From a virus, in the IMG/VR virus record IMGVR_UViG_3300025543_000288, positions 1 to 20,251 of that record: a stretch of DNA of 20,251 bases; one strand, written 5' to 3'. The position numbers and the translations under genes are program-made. Under the pieces are notes generated by a model. The model was not told the DNA's origin. It made no database searches and was given only the letters and a program-made list of their open reading frames with translations. Positions within the stretch are counted from its first letter, which is position 1. Each line of letters begins with the position of its first letter. Shown one piece after another: positions 1 to 19,681 of the stretch.

Positions 1-2208
1 TGAATAACTCTTTACACCAACACCAGAATCTGTTGAAGCATTCCAACAAAGTATAAATGATGTCGCAGTTAAGTTTGAACTTGTTAAACTTGTTGGTACA
101 GTTGGAGGTGTTGTATCTGGTGGAATCGTTGGAGCTGGAGGTAAATAAATATCATTCAGTAATTCCAAATCAGACTTTCCAGTTAACATATTTGTTTTGA
201 TACTATTTATTTTATAAGTAGTTCCACTAATATTAAATCTGTCGGCTAGTGTATAATTAAGTAAAATTCTTAATGGTAAATATGCAGTTAATTTTGTTAA
301 CCTATTTGTTACATCAAACACATCAGAAATATAATCTTTATGGTATGCTTCAAATAAAGTATTTGTAAACTCATTATCTGCTGGGTCTGATAAAGCTCCA
401 TACTCATTAAACTCTTGATTGAAATTTATATTGTACTTACTTGTAGCAGATGACAAAGCAACACTATTTGATGGTATGTTATAATTTACAATTTCTGAAT
501 GAGTTGTACTATCTTCAACAAAAGAAATATTATTACCATTGTTTCTAATTGGATAAAACAATAAAGGCTTTCCGTAATATGGCTCTTGATTATCATCAAC
601 AAAATAACCATATTGAATTGATGTTACTGCATCTGTGTTATAGTCTCTTAATCTTTCATATTTCAATTGCGAGAAAGGTGTTTTAACCTTGTAAATATCC
701 CCACCAAAATCTATTCCTCCTACTTGATTGTAATGCATCTTTCCCCAAGTCTGAGCTGCTAGTTGTTCGTGTTGTTTTGCAAGTAGTGTTTTTGTGTCTC
801 CGTGTTCAAATGTTATTTCCTTGAATGGTAAAGCAACATTTACTGTGCTTTTGCTTCTGTCAATAAATTCTGTTATGTCATAAGAAACACCCCCAGAATA
901 ATAATTATCTAAAGTTTTTACAATTACCTCTCCAGTATTATCATCAACATAAGATGTTAAATTAAACATTTTAAAAACACCAGTTAAAAAGTCTATTGTT
1001 TTTAAATCTGGTATCTGTTGTGATATGATAAAACTAAAAGAATTATTATGCGTAAAAGAAGCAGATGTAAATCGTGTAATAAATGACCCAGTACCAATTC
1101 TAGTTTCTAAAACCCAAGTTACTTCAGAAAAGGTTATATTGTCAGCAGATTCAATTATCACATTATAACCTCCAGCAACTAAATTATACTCAGTTTCAGA
1201 TATATCTAAATCTCCAGATGCATCAATTACTCTATGCACCTCTTGACCATTTATTTGAATTGATACATTATAAGAGTCAGTACTTGTTGTTCTTAGCTCT
1301 AAATCTAATCCTCCAAATTGAAAAAATGAATTTGATGATGGATTTAAAGTTGTTGATGTTATATTTAAAGTAGATACATTTATTATTCCAGTCTGAGTTG
1401 GGTTGTGTGTTACTGTCCAAGTATTAACTAAAGATTGTGCTAATATATTTCCAGTTCCAGTTGATGTAACATCTCCCTTTTTTCTATGCAACCACATAAA
1501 CAAATTGTAGTATGGTTCGTTTGTACTTGTAAAAAAATCATTACTAAAAGTTATACCATATTTTATTTCTATTGCTTGTATAATTCTATCTAATCTTAAA
1601 GCATATTTTAAATCATTCCAAGAAACTCCGTGTACATTTGAACCACCTCCAGAACTAGAATAATGCAAATTTCCAACATCATTTGCTGATGAATGACTAT
1701 TATAAGTTAATCTTTGTGTATGTGTTATAAGAGGAACAATAACATCGTTTGTTGATGGATTATCTTGAAATGAACTTTTTATACTTGAAGAGTCATAGAC
1801 TAAATTAATACTATCCAAGCTATTCAAAGCGTTTAATTTATCTTCTCCAAGTAAGTCTTTTAAAGTTACTGTATTACCAGTAAATCTAACCTTGTAAGAT
1901 GATGGTACATTGTTCTTTAAATCAACACCTTCTAGTTTTATCTTACCCTTTTTGAATTTTAAATGATTTAATTCTAAAGTAGCACTTACCCTCTTCCTTC
2001 CATCAAATCCATTTGTAATTGAATTGTTGTAATAATGTCTAAATATTTTATTATTCTCTTTTGTTGCTGGTAATGAAAAGGATTTTGAATAGTCTGTAAA
2101 TACCTTCTGGACATCTTTTACATTTTGAATAGTCTGCGTCAAAACAACACTTTCATCATCAAATAAATCTACTCTTTGACCTTGTATATATAGTTGTATT
2201 TTTTGCAT
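1..2208 (-). CDS. Large tail structural protein, 3' end cut by window edge, with fibronectin type III domain
   Basis: An open frame of 736 codons runs from an ATG at 2208 to the left edge without a stop, so the C-terminus is missing. The ATG follows directly on the TAA of the preceding gene (TAAATG), which suggests translational coupling. The N-terminus (MQKIQLYIQGQRVDLFDD, then a stretch with TDYSKSFSLPATKEN) resembles large tail proteins of flavobacterial phages, from memory. The middle is beta-rich and Ser/Thr/Asn-rich, including a segment around residues 270-350 that looks like a separate sandwich domain. From about residue 698 a fibronectin type III repeat begins: a DTTPPTVPTSL linker, then the conserved Trp and the NASTDSGVGV turn. 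FN3 domains are common in exposed tail proteins. It is probably a tail-tip, baseplate or receptor-contact protein. The exact role is inference. Confidence 0.8.
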   Translation of the reverse strand, partial: MQKIQLYIQGQRVDLFDDESVVLTQTIQNVKDVQKVFTDYSKSFSLPATKENNKIFRHYYNNSITNGFDGRKRVSATLELNHLKFKKGKIKLEGVDLKNNVPSSYKVRFTGNTVTLKDLLGEDKLNALNSLDSINLVYDSSSIKSSFQDNPSTNDVIVPLITHTQRLTYNSHSSANDVGNLHYSSSGGGSNVHGVSWNDLKYALRLDRIIQAIEIKYGITFSNDFFTSTNEPYYNLFMWLHRKKGDVTSTGTGNILAQSLVNTWTVTHNPTQTGIINVSTLNITSTTLNPSSNSFFQFGGLDLELRTTSTDSYNVSIQINGQEVHRVIDASGDLDISETEYNLVAGGYNVIIESADNITFSEVTWVLETRIGTGSFITRFTSASFTHNNSFSFIISQQIPDLKTIDFLTGVFKMFNLTSYVDDNTGEVIVKTLDNYYSGGVSYDITEFIDRSKSTVNVALPFKEITFEHGDTKTLLAKQHEQLAAQTWGKMHYNQVGGIDFGGDIYKVKTPFSQLKYERLRDYNTDAVTSIQYGYFVDDNQEPYYGKPLLFYPIRNNGNNISFVEDSTTHSEIVNYNIPSNSVALSSATSKYNINFNQEFNEYGALSDPADNEFTNTLFEAYHKDYISDVFDVTNRLTKLTAYLPLRILLNYTLADRFNISGTTYKINSIKTNMLTGKSDLELLNDIYLPPAPTIPPDTTPPTVPTSLTSSNLTATSFILCWNASTDSGVGVKSYS

Positions 2209-3624
2209 TTATCTGATGTCATTTAAAACATTATAAGAGTTATCAAACTCAATTGTGTATTCAACTAATTTATCATTTAACCTCGTCTTGTAATTAATAC
2301 TACTTGTCTTAATATTGATTGGCAGTACTTGATTATTTGTGCTTGTTATCCAAACCCTTTCAGACAACATAAGTTGTTTAAATACTTCGTTGTTTGATTC
2401 GCTTACAAATCCACTACTCAAAGAAATTGATTCATTGCCAATTATATTAAAATCTCTATTTGTATGATTAGATGTGCTATAAGTATTACTTGATGTTAAT
2501 GTATTTGCTTTGTAATTCTCTCTTTTTGTAGTCATTTTTTCAATTGACTTTTTAAAGAAATACATATCTTGAAGAACTCCAAACCTATTCGTAAAAGTTA
2601 CTTTATATGGTTCAAATTTATCTGGACATTGTTCGTTTAATTGTAATAAAGTTATACTATCATCATCGGTTATTCTTATGCTACTTACATCTACAGTCTT
2701 TTTAACAGATACATTATCAATAGAGAAAGTAAGAGGTGTTGTTAAATCTGTTGCTTGTGCTTCAAATTGTATTCTTTCGGTAGCCTCTCCAACTCCAGAA
2801 ACTCTGTATACTCCATTCCTTGTAATTGGAATAGGAAAAGGGTATCTCATTTTAGCAGTACCAGTTCCACTAAAATTTGTCACAGTAAATTCAGAGGTAA
2901 TATTTACCCCATCAGTTAAACCAGCAGAAGATTGAAATAATCTATCAATTGCTAAATCAGAAGAATTTAAAAAACTTGCTCCATTGTTTATTGTCCAATC
3001 AGTAGTTTCTTTTGTCCATCCACTATCTGTTGTGAAATTTCCGTTTACACATAGTTCTGGAAATAACTCAACTGATTCTATTTGAGCATTGCTTTGTGTG
3101 CTTGTGGTATATGATACTGTTCTTTGTGTTGCTCCAGCAGAATCCAAGAATAATAATGTTGGATTTTTTTCTGTGTATATTGGTATTCTGTAATCTGCAA
3201 GAGGTGGTGTATTTATATCTCTTTGAGACATCAACAAAGCTCTGTAAAAAAGTGAAAAGGTGTTTGGTTCTTGAAAATATAAGAAACTATCAAAAGCTAA
3301 ATCTGTGCTTATTGTCTGTGATAATTGTACACCATTCCCATCCTTTGCAGTTAAGATAGTTCTTACCCATTTAGCAGAACCCTCAGCAGTTGTATCATAG
3401 TCTCCATTAAAAGAAGCATCTAAATAGTCTCTTATTAGTTCAGCTATTTCAAAAGATATTTGCGTTGTGGTTAATATTATTTGTTTACTTAAAGAATAAG
3501 TTGGTGTGCCAGTATAGCCAGTTGTTTTGTCTCCAGTATAAATCTCTATATCTAAAGTTGCAGTTGCTAAATCAGTATCTGTTACAGATATAAAGTAGGG
3601 ACTCCTAGCGTTTATTATTGCCAT
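2209..3624 (-). CDS. Tail-associated structural protein with carbohydrate-binding-like insertion
   Basis: This is a 471-residue protein starting at ATG 3624 and overlapping the upstream gene by 20 bases. The N-terminal third (MAIINARSPYFISVTDTD, then beta-strand-rich sequence) and the C-terminal third are typical of minor tail proteins in phages of this kind, by recollection. Residues about 190-310 read as an inserted jelly-roll module. They open with ELCVNGNFTTDSGW, contain a TDWTINNG strand, and close with SIDNVSVKKT, the pattern of carbohydrate-binding domains of the CBM4/9 type. Such inserts in tail proteins are thought to bind host glycans. No enzymatic motif is visible. The next gene starts immediately after the stop, so the two proteins are probably made together. 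The structural role is likely; the exact position in the tail is unknown. Confidence 0.75.
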   Translation of the reverse strand: MAIINARSPYFISVTDTDLATATLDIEIYTGDKTTGYTGTPTYSLSKQIILTTTQISFEIAELIRDYLDASFNGDYDTTAEGSAKWVRTILTAKDGNGVQLSQTISTDLAFDSFLYFQEPNTFSLFYRALLMSQRDINTPPLADYRIPIYTEKNPTLLFLDSAGATQRTVSYTTSTQSNAQIESVELFPELCVNGNFTTDSGWTKETTDWTINNGASFLNSSDLAIDRLFQSSAGLTDGVNITSEFTVTNFSGTGTAKMRYPFPIPITRNGVYRVSGVGEATERIQFEAQATDLTTPLTFSIDNVSVKKTVDVSSIRITDDDSITLLQLNEQCPDKFEPYKVTFTNRFGVLQDMYFFKKSIEKMTTKRENYKANTLTSSNTYSTSNHTNRDFNIIGNESISLSSGFVSESNNEVFKQLMLSERVWITSTNNQVLPINIKTSSINYKTRLNDKLVEYTIEFDNSYNVLNDIR

Positions 3625-4120
3625 TGGTTGTAAATTTTAATAGTTCTTCAACATCTAATTCGTATGCTTTTATTATGTCTGCATCTAATCTCTTAAATGC
3701 TCTTTCAAATGGTTTAGTAAAAAATAAACTTGGTTTTATACCATTATTAAAAATACCTCTTGCAATCATAAACTGTAATGATTTTCTTGAAATGAATTTA
3801 CCTTTCTTGTCTCTTATTCCTTTTAACCCTTTTCTTACTATCCACTTATCTAACTTGCTTGGTGGTGGCATCTTATCCTTGTAACTAAATGGAGTATTAT
3901 ATTTTACCTTCTTTCCACTTACACCCTTGTCTTGATAGATACCATATTCCTCCATTAAGAAACTTAGAGCAAAGCTATTTGGACTAACAGTTAAATCATA
4001 ATCTAAACTATTGTACAAGTCCTTTGAACTATTCTTTTTGCCCTTTGTTAGATTCGTTCTTGATTGTTGTATAACATATTTTGAAAATCTATTTAGTTCT
4101 TGTTGAACATTCTTTAACAT
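3605..4120 (-). CDS. HK97 gp10-like neck/tail completion protein
   Basis: The protein has 171 residues and starts at ATG 4120. Its beginning overlaps the end of the upstream gene by 7 bases and its end overlaps the next gene by 20. The N-terminal helix is rich in Lys, Ser and Asn. The middle contains MEEYGIYQDKGVSG followed by a Pro-rich linker and PPPSKLDKWI. The C-terminal part has RGIFNNGIKPSLFFTKPF and then a long helix. The combination of EYGxYxDxG and GIxPSxFFTxPF is what I associate with HK97 gp10-like neck or tail-completion proteins in Bacteroidetes phages. The position among tail genes agrees. Assignment is by family resemblance only; no catalytic motif is expected or seen. Confidence 0.65.
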   Translation of the reverse strand: MLKNVQQELNRFSKYVIQQSRTNLTKGKKNSSKDLYNSLDYDLTVSPNSFALSFLMEEYGIYQDKGVSGKKVKYNTPFSYKDKMPPPSKLDKWIVRKGLKGIRDKKGKFISRKSLQFMIARGIFNNGIKPSLFFTKPFERAFKRLDADIIKAYELDVEELLKFTTNGNNKR

Positions 4121-4569
4121 ATATTTATATCGTTATTTACAATAACATCAAATGTCATTGCCCAACCAGCCATCTCATTTTCAAACCTATCGTAGAATGG
4201 TTCTAAATTAGTTGTTCCTTCTAATTGGTATAAGTCTTGAAATAATGTTCCACCTCTTAACACTTGTGCTAATTTATTAAGTACTGCTAATTGAGTATTT
4301 AATATATCTTGTTCATTGTTATTCCCTCTGAATATATCTACAGATTTCTTTTTCGAAATATTAACAATATCCATAGACAAAACAGATAAATTGAAACGTA
4401 AAATGTTGTCATCATTACTTACATTATTTACAATTATGTGTGATAAAGGATAAATAGTCTGCTTTGATAAATCAATATTTGTTATATCCCCAGTTGTAAC
4501 TGTTTTTACATTTGGGTCAGATAACAATTGAGTCTTTATTGTTTCCGTTACTTGGTAAAATCCTTTCAT
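4114..4569 (-). CDS. Tail terminator-like protein
   Basis: The protein has 151 residues. Its ATG (4569-4567) overlaps by one base the TAA that closes the -1 frame of the upstream tail chaperone gene (TAATG), which implies coupled translation. The protein is alpha/beta with the segments LSKQTIYPLSHIIVNNVS and LSVLSMDIVNISKK. It then has FRGNNNEQDILNTQLAVL and ends with GWAMTFDVIVNNDINIC. This pattern of a short strand, a helix and paired strands, together with the location next to a gp10-like gene, fits tail terminator or minor tail proteins of siphoviruses. I recognise the family from uncultured marine flavobacterial phages but know of no experimental function, so the terminator label is inference. 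Confidence 0.6.
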   Translation of the reverse strand: MKGFYQVTETIKTQLLSDPNVKTVTTGDITNIDLSKQTIYPLSHIIVNNVSNDDNILRFNLSVLSMDIVNISKKKSVDIFRGNNNEQDILNTQLAVLNKLAQVLRGGTLFQDLYQLEGTTNLEPFYDRFENEMAGWAMTFDVIVNNDINIC

Positions 4570-4820
4570 TAAAATTTACTTTTTATTTGTTGTGCTTCTA
4601 TCTCTGCTTTCTCCTTCTCAAATGATAACATTGTTAAACATTGATGTGCGTTTAATTTAGTGATATCTTCAAGCCTTGTAACATCTCCTCCAGAGAGAGA
4701 ATAAAGGGATGAGTACCATCCATATCGCTTGTTGAAATTAGCTGCTCTTGTATATTCTCCATCTCCTCCAGATTTGAATAGAGTATCGTATGTTTCGATA
4801 ATTCGAGTCCTAAATTCAAG
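4569..4820 (-). CDS. -1 frame extension of tail chaperone gene (gpGT-like T segment), expressed by frameshift
   Basis: This reading frame lies one base back from the 216-residue frame. It opens after a TGA about 23 bases upstream of the T10 run, and from the slip site codes for 83 residues to a TAA at 4571-4569. It has no ATG until close to its end, so it cannot be started independently. The peptide is well formed: FKSGGDGEYTRAANFNKRYG, then WYSSLYSLSGGDVTRLED, ITKLNAHQCLTMLSF and EKEKAEIEAQQIKSKF. That is a Trp/Tyr-rich core followed by an amphipathic helix. Its stop overlaps the next gene's ATG by one base. If ribosomes slip -1 in the T run, the product is a fusion of about 244 residues, similar in design to the lambda gpG/gpGT tail chaperones. 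Confidence 0.7.
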   Translation of the reverse strand, partial: LEFRTRIIETYDTLFKSGGDGEYTRAANFNKRYGWYSSLYSLSGGDVTRLEDITKLNAHQCLTMLSFEKEKAEIEAQQIKSKF

Positions 4821-5302
4821 AAAAAAAAAACTGCACCAATTGCTGCATCAAGAGGCATATCTTTTAACGCTTCTGGATTTGATACATTATAATCTTCAAT
4901 ACTATATTTATCTCCTTTCTTTATTTTAATTGGTCTGTATAATACGTTCATTGCTTTGTGCATTTCTGCCCAACTAATAATATTATTATCTAAATCAATA
5001 TACTCTCCTAAACTCATTTCGTCTAAGTCTGGAATAAATCCATATTGAACTCCATTCAATGTAAACTTCTCAACGTGATTTGGTGTTACAGATAGCATCT
5101 CGTTTAGTATATCAATTATTGCTGATACACTTGACATCTTTAACTTGTAACTATCAGATAAAGGAATACCACAAAAGATTTCTATCATTTTAGCATTGAG
5201 AAAATTACCCTCTGGATTCTCTTCAGCTATCTTTAAGAACTTCTGATACTGCTCTAATGTAATTTCGTTTAACAATGTTGGTACTGTAATTTCAATCTTC
5301 AT
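4652..5302 (-). CDS. Tail assembly chaperone-like protein (frame 0 product)
   Basis: The protein has 216 residues from ATG 5302. It is mostly helical, with a family-like core: ITLEQYQKFLKIAEENPEG near the N-terminus, then MIEIFCGIPL, NGVQYGFIPDLDEMSLGEYI, MHKAMNVLYRPIK and GDKYSIEDY. I recognise this set (GFIPxLxExxxGEYIDLD, MHKAMxVLYRP) from phages of Bacteroidetes, where the gene sits with tail genes. The T10 run falls at codons 158-161 (GAVFFFLNLG). Frame 0 then continues for about 55 residues to LSLEEMLQGLKISLN and a TAA at 4654-4652. The -1 frame across the same bases also codes for a plausible peptide. Position, length and two-frame design point to a gpG/gpGT-type tail assembly chaperone. 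The function is inferred, not shown by a catalytic motif. Confidence 0.65.
   Translation of the reverse strand: MKIEITVPTLLNEITLEQYQKFLKIAEENPEGNFLNAKMIEIFCGIPLSDSYKLKMSSVSAIIDILNEMLSVTPNHVEKFTLNGVQYGFIPDLDEMSLGEYIDLDNNIISWAEMHKAMNVLYRPIKIKKGDKYSIEDYNVSNPEALKDMPLDAAIGAVFFFLNLGLELSKHTILYSNLEEMENIQEQLISTSDMDGTHPFILSLEEMLQGLKISLN
4820..4831 (-). promoter_or_regulatory. Putative -1 slippery site: ten consecutive T in the coding strand
   Basis: The coding strand reads GCAG, ten T, then CTTGAA. In frame 0 the codons are GTT TTT TTT TTC. After a -1 slip the codons become TTT CTT GAA, which continue an open frame of 83 codons. A U-UUU-UUU heptamer is a valid slippery sequence, and long U runs also favour transcriptional slippage. 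About 20 bases downstream there is a small hairpin (TATCG/CGATA, positions 4784-4800); this is farther away and weaker than usual stimulators. The run is also a typical place for sequencing indels. Confidence 0.6.
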
Positions 5303-5322: not shown

Positions 5323-5475
5323 CTATATTTTTATAAAAAAACCCTTACAAATTTCATATGCTTTTGATAATAGTAAAAAATGATTTGGTCTTGTTGGTTT
5401 GGCTATGCGTATTTCTTTGCCAGTTTTATGATGTATAAAGCATTCAACAACTGCAATCATCTGTTCGTTGCTCAT
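5323..5475 (-). CDS. Small hypothetical protein after TerL
   Basis: This 50-residue frame starts at ATG 5475, overlapping the TerL stop by one base (TAATG), and ends at TAG 5325-5323. The sequence begins MSNEQMIAVVECFIHHKTGK and continues with a basic segment (IRIAKPTRPNHF) and a helix ending CKGFFIKI. No known domain is apparent. The start/stop overlap and the tight spacing to the next gene (20 bases) support it being a real coupled gene. The product is basic and soluble. A packaging or DNA-binding accessory role is possible from context but has no direct support. Confidence 0.6.
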   Translation of the reverse strand: MSNEQMIAVVECFIHHKTGKEIRIAKPTRPNHFLLLSKAYEICKGFFIKI

Positions 5476-6641
5476 TACCTTATAAAGTATTTCCCCTTAT
5501 TTGGATTGCTTAACTGAGATGTAATAGCGTAACGACAACTATCGATGCAATGGTCAAAACCTTGAATCGGTTTATTAATAGTATTCCCCTCTCTGTCTTT
5601 CATCCAAGTATAAGACTGCAACTCTTTAATAAGGTTATTGCTTCTGCTTGTTACAAAGATTTTGTTTTGGTTAATTAGATTGATTCCATATACAATAGAA
5701 TCCTTACCTTTAGTACAAGGTAATATATTATGTCTGTATGTTCTTAATTCTGCTATTGATTTTGGTTCAGCAGAATCTGCATAAACTATCTCTTTTACAT
5801 TGTGTTCTTTTAATAGATTTGAGATGTCTACATTTAAAAGTTTCTTTTGATAAAATACTTCATCGAAGATATATGAATCATTGTATTTGTATAATCTAAT
5901 GTAAGTGCTTGGGTCATTACTATATCCGAAATCCATCCCTCCACATAATAATCTTGCTTCTTCTGGCAGTTTCTCCATCTCTCTCCAATCCTTTATACAT
6001 ACACCTTCTAAACTTCCTATCTGTCCAAGTCCGTAAACCTTCCACCAGTTGCTCCAATATTCGCTTGTCTTTGCTTTCTCTCTTGCTGATTCAATATCAT
6101 CTACAATGGTTTGTGGTAATGCTTCATTATCTAAGTAAGTAAGGGTAATAAAATCTGCATCATCATTTCCGACAACTTCTTTATGTGCCCAAAAGTTTGC
6201 AGTTGGGTTAAAGTCAATCCAAATGTCTCCAGATGTTCTTATTGATAATTGGTTGTATGCTTCAAAAGGAACATTGTTTGCTTCATTAACATACAATACA
6301 TTCCTTCTTGCCCCTCTTAATTTATCTGGTTGCTCAACACTAAAAAATTCTATGTAGCTTCCATTTGTAAATGTGTATTTTAAAGCTGACCTATTCCATT
6401 GATTATCTCGGAATCTATTAGTTGATACCATAATCTTTAGAAAGTCCTTCATTGCTCCTCTTCGTAAATGTGGAATTGATTCAGATACTACACTTGTTTC
6501 TGTTAGTGGATATCTAATACACCTATCAATAAGAATTGGGATGATGCCAAATGTCTTACCAGCTGACGTTCCTCCTTGAATGACTTTTTTACGCTTTGTA
6601 AGAGCGTGTAATTTCTTTATGGCAGTTGTTGATTGAAACAA
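5475..6641 (-). CDS. terL: Terminase large subunit (ATPase/nuclease)
   Basis: This is the motor that pumps phage DNA into the procapsid and cuts concatemers. The ATPase domain has Walker A GGTSAGKT (residues 23-30) and Walker B VLYVNE (115-120). The coupling motif IWIDFNPT is at about 140-147. The C-terminal RNase H-like nuclease shows MDFGYSNDP with Asp237, VYADSAEPKS with Asp289, and GFDHCIDSCRYA with Asp363/Asp367. At 388 residues it is on the short side for the family. No ATG lies upstream of Walker A in this frame. The best start is TTG 6641-6639, three bases after the TerS stop; ATT and ATA codons precede it back to an in-frame TGA. Initiation is therefore probably coupled to TerS translation. 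The architecture resembles PBSX/SPP1-type terminases. Confidence 0.95.
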   Translation of the reverse strand: MFQSTTAIKKLHALTKRKKVIQGGTSAGKTFGIIPILIDRCIRYPLTETSVVSESIPHLRRGAMKDFLKIMVSTNRFRDNQWNRSALKYTFTNGSYIEFFSVEQPDKLRGARRNVLYVNEANNVPFEAYNQLSIRTSGDIWIDFNPTANFWAHKEVVGNDDADFITLTYLDNEALPQTIVDDIESAREKAKTSEYWSNWWKVYGLGQIGSLEGVCIKDWREMEKLPEEARLLCGGMDFGYSNDPSTYIRLYKYNDSYIFDEVFYQKKLLNVDISNLLKEHNVKEIVYADSAEPKSIAELRTYRHNILPCTKGKDSIVYGINLINQNKIFVTSRSNNLIKELQSYTWMKDREGNTINKPIQGFDHCIDSCRYAITSQLSNPNKGKYFIR

Positions 6642-19231: not shown

Positions 19232-19681
19232 TTAATTTTTTCTAATCTTCTCTAAAGTTCTTGCACCAAAATAACCTCCATAAGCTAACATTAATAGATT
19301 GCCTAATAATGATATCCATTGAGCGTCTATTTTAAACCCTTCTAAAGAACTATCTAATATTACATAGATAAATAGACTAAGAGTCAAAAAAGCTAAACAC
19401 ATTGGTCTTATATTCCTAGCTAAAAAAGAGTCTGCTTTGTTGTCGGACTGCCATCTCTTAGTGACTTCTTGCATCTCGATGACATCTTGCTCTAATTCTT
19501 TTACTAGCATTTCTTTCTCTAATGCAGTTAGCTCTTTACTGCCTCCGATGGCTTCTAAAATGTCAGAGACTTTGCCTCCAGTAATTGCGTCAAAGACTGG
19601 AGATACTTTTTTACCAGTTGCTACTACACCCCTTAAAAGATTGCCAAAGAATGTTCCTTTTTTTTTCTTTAGTATGTCCAT
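19232..19681 (-). CDS. Holin-like protein (3TM/GTA holin type)
   Basis: The protein has 149 residues. After a basic start and a Gly-rich helix, a charged helix runs from ALEKEMLVKELEQDVIEMQE into RWQSDNKADSFLARNIRP (76-93). The RWxSD...FLxRNIRP motif is the mark of this holin-like family. Two membrane helices follow: about 94-110 (MCLAFLTLSLFIYVILD) and about 123-140 (ISLLGNLLMLAYGGYFGA). A basic end (RTLEKIRKN) completes it. It would permeabilise the inner membrane so that the endolysin can reach the wall. The start overlaps the endolysin gene by 13 bases. It is the last lysis gene before the intergenic region. Confidence 0.8.
   Translation of the reverse strand: MDILKKKKGTFFGNLLRGVVATGKKVSPVFDAITGGKVSDILEAIGGSKELTALEKEMLVKELEQDVIEMQEVTKRWQSDNKADSFLARNIRPMCLAFLTLSLFIYVILDSSLEGFKIDAQWISLLGNLLMLAYGGYFGARTLEKIRKN

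Follow-up and report, generated by a model that had tools for sequence, protein, structure and literature searches.

The sequence analysed, hereafter the window, is a 20,251-base IMG/VR virus record that carries on its minus strand, from 5302 to 4569, an apparent frameshift gene whose two reading frames meet at a run of ten T. The positions, sequence and frames of this run and of both open reading frames were rechecked in the window and are as given in the original prediction, which also had the product lengths of 216 and 244 residues right. The gene and its neighbours are laid out as follows.

5475..6641, minus strand: terminase large subunit (TerL; Pfam Terminase_3C, E 5e-20), with one small ORF between it and the frameshift gene
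4652..5302, minus strand: frame-0 ORF of 216 aa for the putative short, G-like product; residues 1-160 are common with the long product
4821..4830, minus strand: T10, the candidate slip site, in the context GCA GTT TTT TTT TTC TTG
4820..4829, minus strand: in-phase heptamers within T10, T TTT TTT (4829-4823) and T TTT TTC (4826-4820), as read from the sequence
4569..4847, minus strand: -1 open frame; frame 0 up to the run plus the -1 tail would give a GT-like product of 244 aa
4652..4820, minus strand: dual-coding overlap of 55 codons, marked by the substitution pattern and a recoding test
4569..4651, minus strand: part coded in the -1 frame alone, with changes mostly at -1 third positions
4114..4569, minus strand: next gene, 151 aa, putatively tail-terminator-like by position (PHROG_30964; P12024L gp42 by position)
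3605..4120, minus strand: 171-aa gene, HK97 gp10-like by eye, a putative function (PHROG_29822)
2209..3624, minus strand: 471-aa tail-module gene (PHROG_35281)
1..2208, minus strand: gene of at least 736 aa, incomplete in the window (PHROG_38559; 30% identity to P12024L gp46)

Frame 0 is 216 codons long, with a stop that ends at 4652. In the window TGA at 4850-4848 and TAA at 4571-4569 bound the -1 frame, the TAA overlapping the ATG of the next gene (TAATG); this frame has a single start codon, the ATG at 4631, close to its end. A single continuous -1 frame would require 11 or 8 T. The original prediction held that either nine or eleven T would restore one frame; this is true of eleven and not of nine, since nine T enters the +1 frame, which closes within 3-11 codons among the representatives of the family described below. 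The run itself is not rarer in the window than chance, nine-T matches numbering 4 against 7.7 in dinucleotide shuffles. What exceeds chance is the conservation of the run together with an open -1 frame.

The order of genes on the minus strand of the window is a TerS-like gene, TerL, a 50-aa ORF, the frameshift gene and the genes of 151, 171, 471 and at least 736 aa. In longer relatives the homologue of the last of these stands just before the tape measure gene; in L148 it is followed by a gene for a 624-aa protein of tape-measure character and then by genes for a prohead protease, a probable major capsid protein and the portal, and in L149 the counterpart of the tape measure gene gives weak matches to PHROG tape measure profiles (E ~1e-6 to 1e-7). 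The phages that carry the gene thus look like siphoviruses, with the frameshift gene in the tail and packaging block. L148 and L149 belong to one 40.5-kb contig that has a second, different portal gene and a second tape-measure-like gene, suggestive of a chimera or of a join between two related phages.

Relatives were collected by an IMG/VR search with the frame-0 protein, which gave 526 confirmed by tblastn. All 80 of the closest loci have the T run in this position, 9, 10 or 12 long, and in 79 of them the -1 frame is open to the stop at the next gene, the contig of the remaining one (L034) ending earlier. Distant relatives at 25-35% identity, found from gp40 of Nonlabens phage P12024L, likewise have T9 or T10 followed by an open -1 frame, except for loci truncated there. 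Later searches included the -1 tail alone as query and 80 of 460 loci were found by the tail alone, so that the T run was not a search criterion. Among these 460 loci (public viral contigs holding both parts of the gene), an uninterrupted run of at least nine T stands between the two parts in every one, with lengths of 9 T (n=334), 10 T (n=118) and 12 T (n=8). The same -1 relation is kept in 458 of the 460, down to about 25% protein identity, so that the check named in the original prediction, conservation of the T run and of both frames in homologues, came out in its favour. Both exceptions come from a single contig, represented by L227 and L335; in L227 (~2482-2560) an indel seems to lie between the T9 run and the WGWY motif, and the tail is not in the -1 frame.

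In all complete representatives but one the -1 frame is open for 80-94 codons. At a nucleotide divergence of at least 10%, 459 of the 460 loci collapse to 174. The frame-0 tail varies in length (19-87 codons), the overlap having a median of about 59 codons. The same layout is present in a cultured isolate, Nonlabens phage P12024L. Bacterial genomes gave matches in two contigs only, one of them binned as Winogradskyella. One flavophage-type copy of the gene (L312) is on a contig binned as an Epsilonproteobacteria MAG and is probably misbinned phage DNA.

Selection was examined through pairwise differences at frame-0 codon positions 1, 2 and 3 in 24 non-redundant close relatives. Before the run the differences are 0.17/0.11/0.38, the signature of frame 0; in the overlap they are 0.14/0.18/0.20, the signature of both frames; and after the frame-0 stop they are 0.04/0.32/0.11, the signature of the -1 frame, whose third positions are frame-0 second positions. 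The suppression of synonymous change proposed as a check on the overlap is thus seen as a fall at frame-0 third positions from 0.38 before the run to 0.20, and the same drop occurs in four groups with other tail lengths. When the -1 tail of the window was recoded synonymously, frame 0 stayed open in 0.4% of trials (probability 0.004), and over the representatives in a median of 1.2%. The -1 tail is conserved as protein, beginning right at the T run; its F-F, W and L residues are the same in all of 42 diverse members, and a motif around [KR][WY]GWY is conserved. The frame-0 tail is predicted at low confidence (pLDDT mostly 40-53) and may be flexible, and part of its conservation depends on the overlapping frame. 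These substitution patterns indicate that both frames are under selection across the overlap, and the relatives uphold an N-terminus common to the two products, the -1 offset between the frames at the T run and the protein-coding nature of either tail. The long overlap would offer an unusually clean case of two proteins on the same DNA.

Judged from these comparisons, the T10/-1 layout is real, has so far gone unannotated and is no sequencing error. Homopolymers are error-prone and one contig (L227 and L335) has a disturbed frame, but the frame relation recurs in 458 of 460 loci drawn from many metagenomes, and also in the genome of an isolate; with both frames under selection as well, an assembly or sequencing error, or a decaying gene, has a negligible chance, and conservation rejects both error and pseudogene.

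The frame-0 protein matches PHROG_32199, of unknown function (E 2e-18), and PHROG_38404, also of unknown function, is the same -1 tail in P12024. The N-domain is predicted well over residues 1-165; a search of the PDB with its fold returned nothing above noise, which does not show that the fold is new. Searches of Pfam, NCBIfam, PHROG and the PDB gave no chaperone match, and tblastn of two -1 tails against annotated phages gave no match. BFVD matches are mostly to unnamed phage proteins, the nearest annotated chaperone match being weak (E 0.013). The models of the N-domain and of the -1 tail both match nine BFVD proteins that are single chains, an indication that the two parts are joined in one polypeptide elsewhere and that not every lineage may need two products.

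The single-chain homologues also bear on the annotation of P12024L, in which the -1 tail is a separate gene (gp41) that would be started by reinitiation. A TAATG at the end of gp40 in that phage is compatible with such a start, but the -1 frame lacks an ATG ahead of the conserved core in 100 of 106 representatives, lacks start codons of every kind there in 69 of the 106, and shows conservation of the tail from the run onwards. Reinitiation is accordingly very improbable, and a start of its own for the -1 tail was rejected, most relatives being without a start codon.

We propose a model whereby one gene would give rise to two proteins that start with the same N-terminal domain, about 160 residues long. 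The short product would come from normal decoding, and a longer one, ending in a helical C-terminal domain, from a -1 shift at the T run. The two would together act as the tail assembly chaperone, as lambda gpG/gpGT do: the tape measure protein would be coated by the common domain, and the tail tube protein recruited by the long form, the less abundant of the two. RNA polymerase slipping on the T run would add one U to the mRNA, at least partly causing the shift, and ribosomes may perhaps also slip on the in-phase T TTT TTT heptamer. The observed part of this explanation is the architecture, its conservation and the selection on both frames of the overlap; we infer the shift itself, its efficiency and the chaperone role, and on the whole consider a two-product recoded tail chaperone gene probable.

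Lambda-type chaperone genes lie directly before the tape measure gene. The frameshift gene does not occupy that place, after the major tail protein gene and directly before the tape measure gene; it follows TerL and about four genes separate it from the tape measure gene. Two overlapping frames joined by a conserved -1 relation, another mark of the lambda G/GT type, are found in 458 of 460 loci. Because of its location the gene is best described as working like lambda G/GT and not as a proven member of that class. Chaperone function, the most likely role, is suggested by context and the two-product layout and not by homology. The chaperone label of the original prediction is plausible in view of the tail module and the presence of a tape measure gene, and is weakened by the unusual gene position and the lack of a match to any chaperone family in the searches above.

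A different function for a recoded two-product gene, for example as a packaging, connector or early tail assembly factor, would suit a gene that comes right after TerL, with the tape measure gene five genes further on, as well as the lack of homology to known chaperones. We consider it unlikely, given the tail-module synteny combined with a conserved -1 two-product layout typical of chaperones, and a BFVD structure match, though weak, that is annotated as a tail assembly chaperone. Furthermore, there is no chaperone candidate in the usual place in L148 and L151, because there the 736-aa homologue adjoins the tape measure gene. On the chaperone reading, flavophages that lack an annotated chaperone would gain a likely one. 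The locus also brings PHROG_32199 and PHROG_38404 together as parts of a single recoded gene, present on hundreds of marine phage contigs.

The original prediction left open whether ribosome or polymerase slips, and here the evidence leans mildly to transcriptional slippage. If ribosomes alone slipped by -1, as in lambda, tRNAs would shift their pairing on T TTT TTT or T TTT TTY; every representative has an in-phase heptamer of the X XXY YYZ form (T TTT TTY). U-rich heptamers are known -1 frameshift sites. The lambda precedent is itself ribosomal (PMC5009743), and sliding-window folding gave a weak dip just downstream of the run (mean z -0.72), slightly stronger than in shuffles. Ribosomal slippage alone is thus a serious contender, if one with somewhat less than an even chance, and we give the same weight to its corollary, that the T run is long only because two frames both code Phe and hydrophobic residues there.

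Several features are not readily accommodated by the ribosome alone. A requirement for a heptamer would be satisfied by shorter runs or other sequences, yet neither a run of 7 or 8 T nor a different heptamer occurs among representatives and the 460 loci. A homopolymer of at least nine T in 460/460 loci falls in the range expected for transcriptional slippage, an A or T run of about 8-9 or more kept by purifying selection; homopolymers of eight or more are typical of that process (PMC3711429). In 12 loci the codon before two Phe codons gives one T only, and two extra T follow the Phe codons; where the preceding codon has no T, there are three Phe codons, all TTT. The second Phe codon is TTT in all phase-1 representatives despite TTC making up 18% of Phe codons in these phages, and in the common layout TTC at this codon would be synonymous in both frames with the heptamer retained. 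RNAalifold on 30 close relatives found no pairs and no consensus downstream structure, an SD-like stimulator showed no enrichment, and an Rfam search gave chance-level matches only. Bacteroidia ribosomes generally fail to recognise SD sequences, and prfB frameshifting is common there (PMC8710568). In other genes A runs of at least nine are strongly avoided (7 versus 38.9 expected), T runs of at least seven occur at about 0.4 of expectation, and the avoidance of 7-T runs shows no dependence on ribosomal phase. This avoidance fits slippage at the level of the polymerase, but could also reflect replication errors. An A9 run is present in the window at 19658-19666 (minus strand), at codon 5 of a 149-aa gene (19232..19681), despite the strong avoidance of such runs in the family.

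Polymerase slippage is favoured, at least as a contributor, because the run is at least nine T, its T are compensated when a neighbouring codon lacks them, the second Phe codon is always TTT and no structure or SD element is conserved; we put it at slightly better than even as the main route. Caveats apply: any 9-T run contains an in-phase heptamer, some of the flanking T may follow from the residues encoded in the two frames, the weak folding dip could be a ribosomal stimulator, and kinship among loci weakens the argument from run conservation to mechanism. Transcriptional slippage is, in our reading, at least as likely as ribosomal, and we do not regard the question as settled. That the marine flavophage chaperone family as a whole sets its product ratio by polymerase slippage at nine or more T and not by the ribosome, with a dual-coding overlap of ~20-90 codons, has a little under an even chance. 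The family may offer a natural phage tail gene system in which slippage by polymerase and by ribosome can be separated.

The closest homologues among annotated phages are gp40/gp41 of the Nonlabens (Persicivirga) phages P12024L and P12024S (PHROG_32199 and PHROG_38404), which have the same gene order and, in P12024L, the same T9 and -1 frame as the relatives. They differ in that the halves are annotated as two hypothetical proteins and the frame-0 product is shorter, at 175 aa. The annotated 55-aa gene gp41 (NC_018272.1 24473-24640) is actually the end of the -1 tail, and the same split gave rise to PHROG_38404.

Shigella spa13 and mxiE are transcriptional slippage genes. In Citrobacter rodentium, tssM1 slips transcriptionally at A11, with heterogeneous mRNA demonstrated (PMC4256274). 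With these genes the flavophage gene shares a long A or T run, a lack of recognised translational stimulators and, as predicted for it, two length variants. In the SEA-PHAGES tail chaperones of the PRFect set the distance from slip site to frame-0 stop averages 26 nt (PMC10885494); -1 recoding in tail chaperones is common to both, but the overlap here has its median at about 59 codons.

In lambda, gpG and gpGT arise by ribosomal -1 slippage (Levin 1993; Xu 2004, 2013, 2014, reviewed in PMC5009743). The flavophage gene resembles them in its predicted products, two from one start through a -1 shift with an extra C-terminal domain in the long form, and in its place in a siphovirus tail module. 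It differs in having a T9-T12 homopolymer instead of GGGAAAG, an overlap of 55 codons instead of a few, and a position after terL, with no detectable homology. It also departs from textbook chaperones in that its T homopolymer is always at least nine and no stimulator is conserved.
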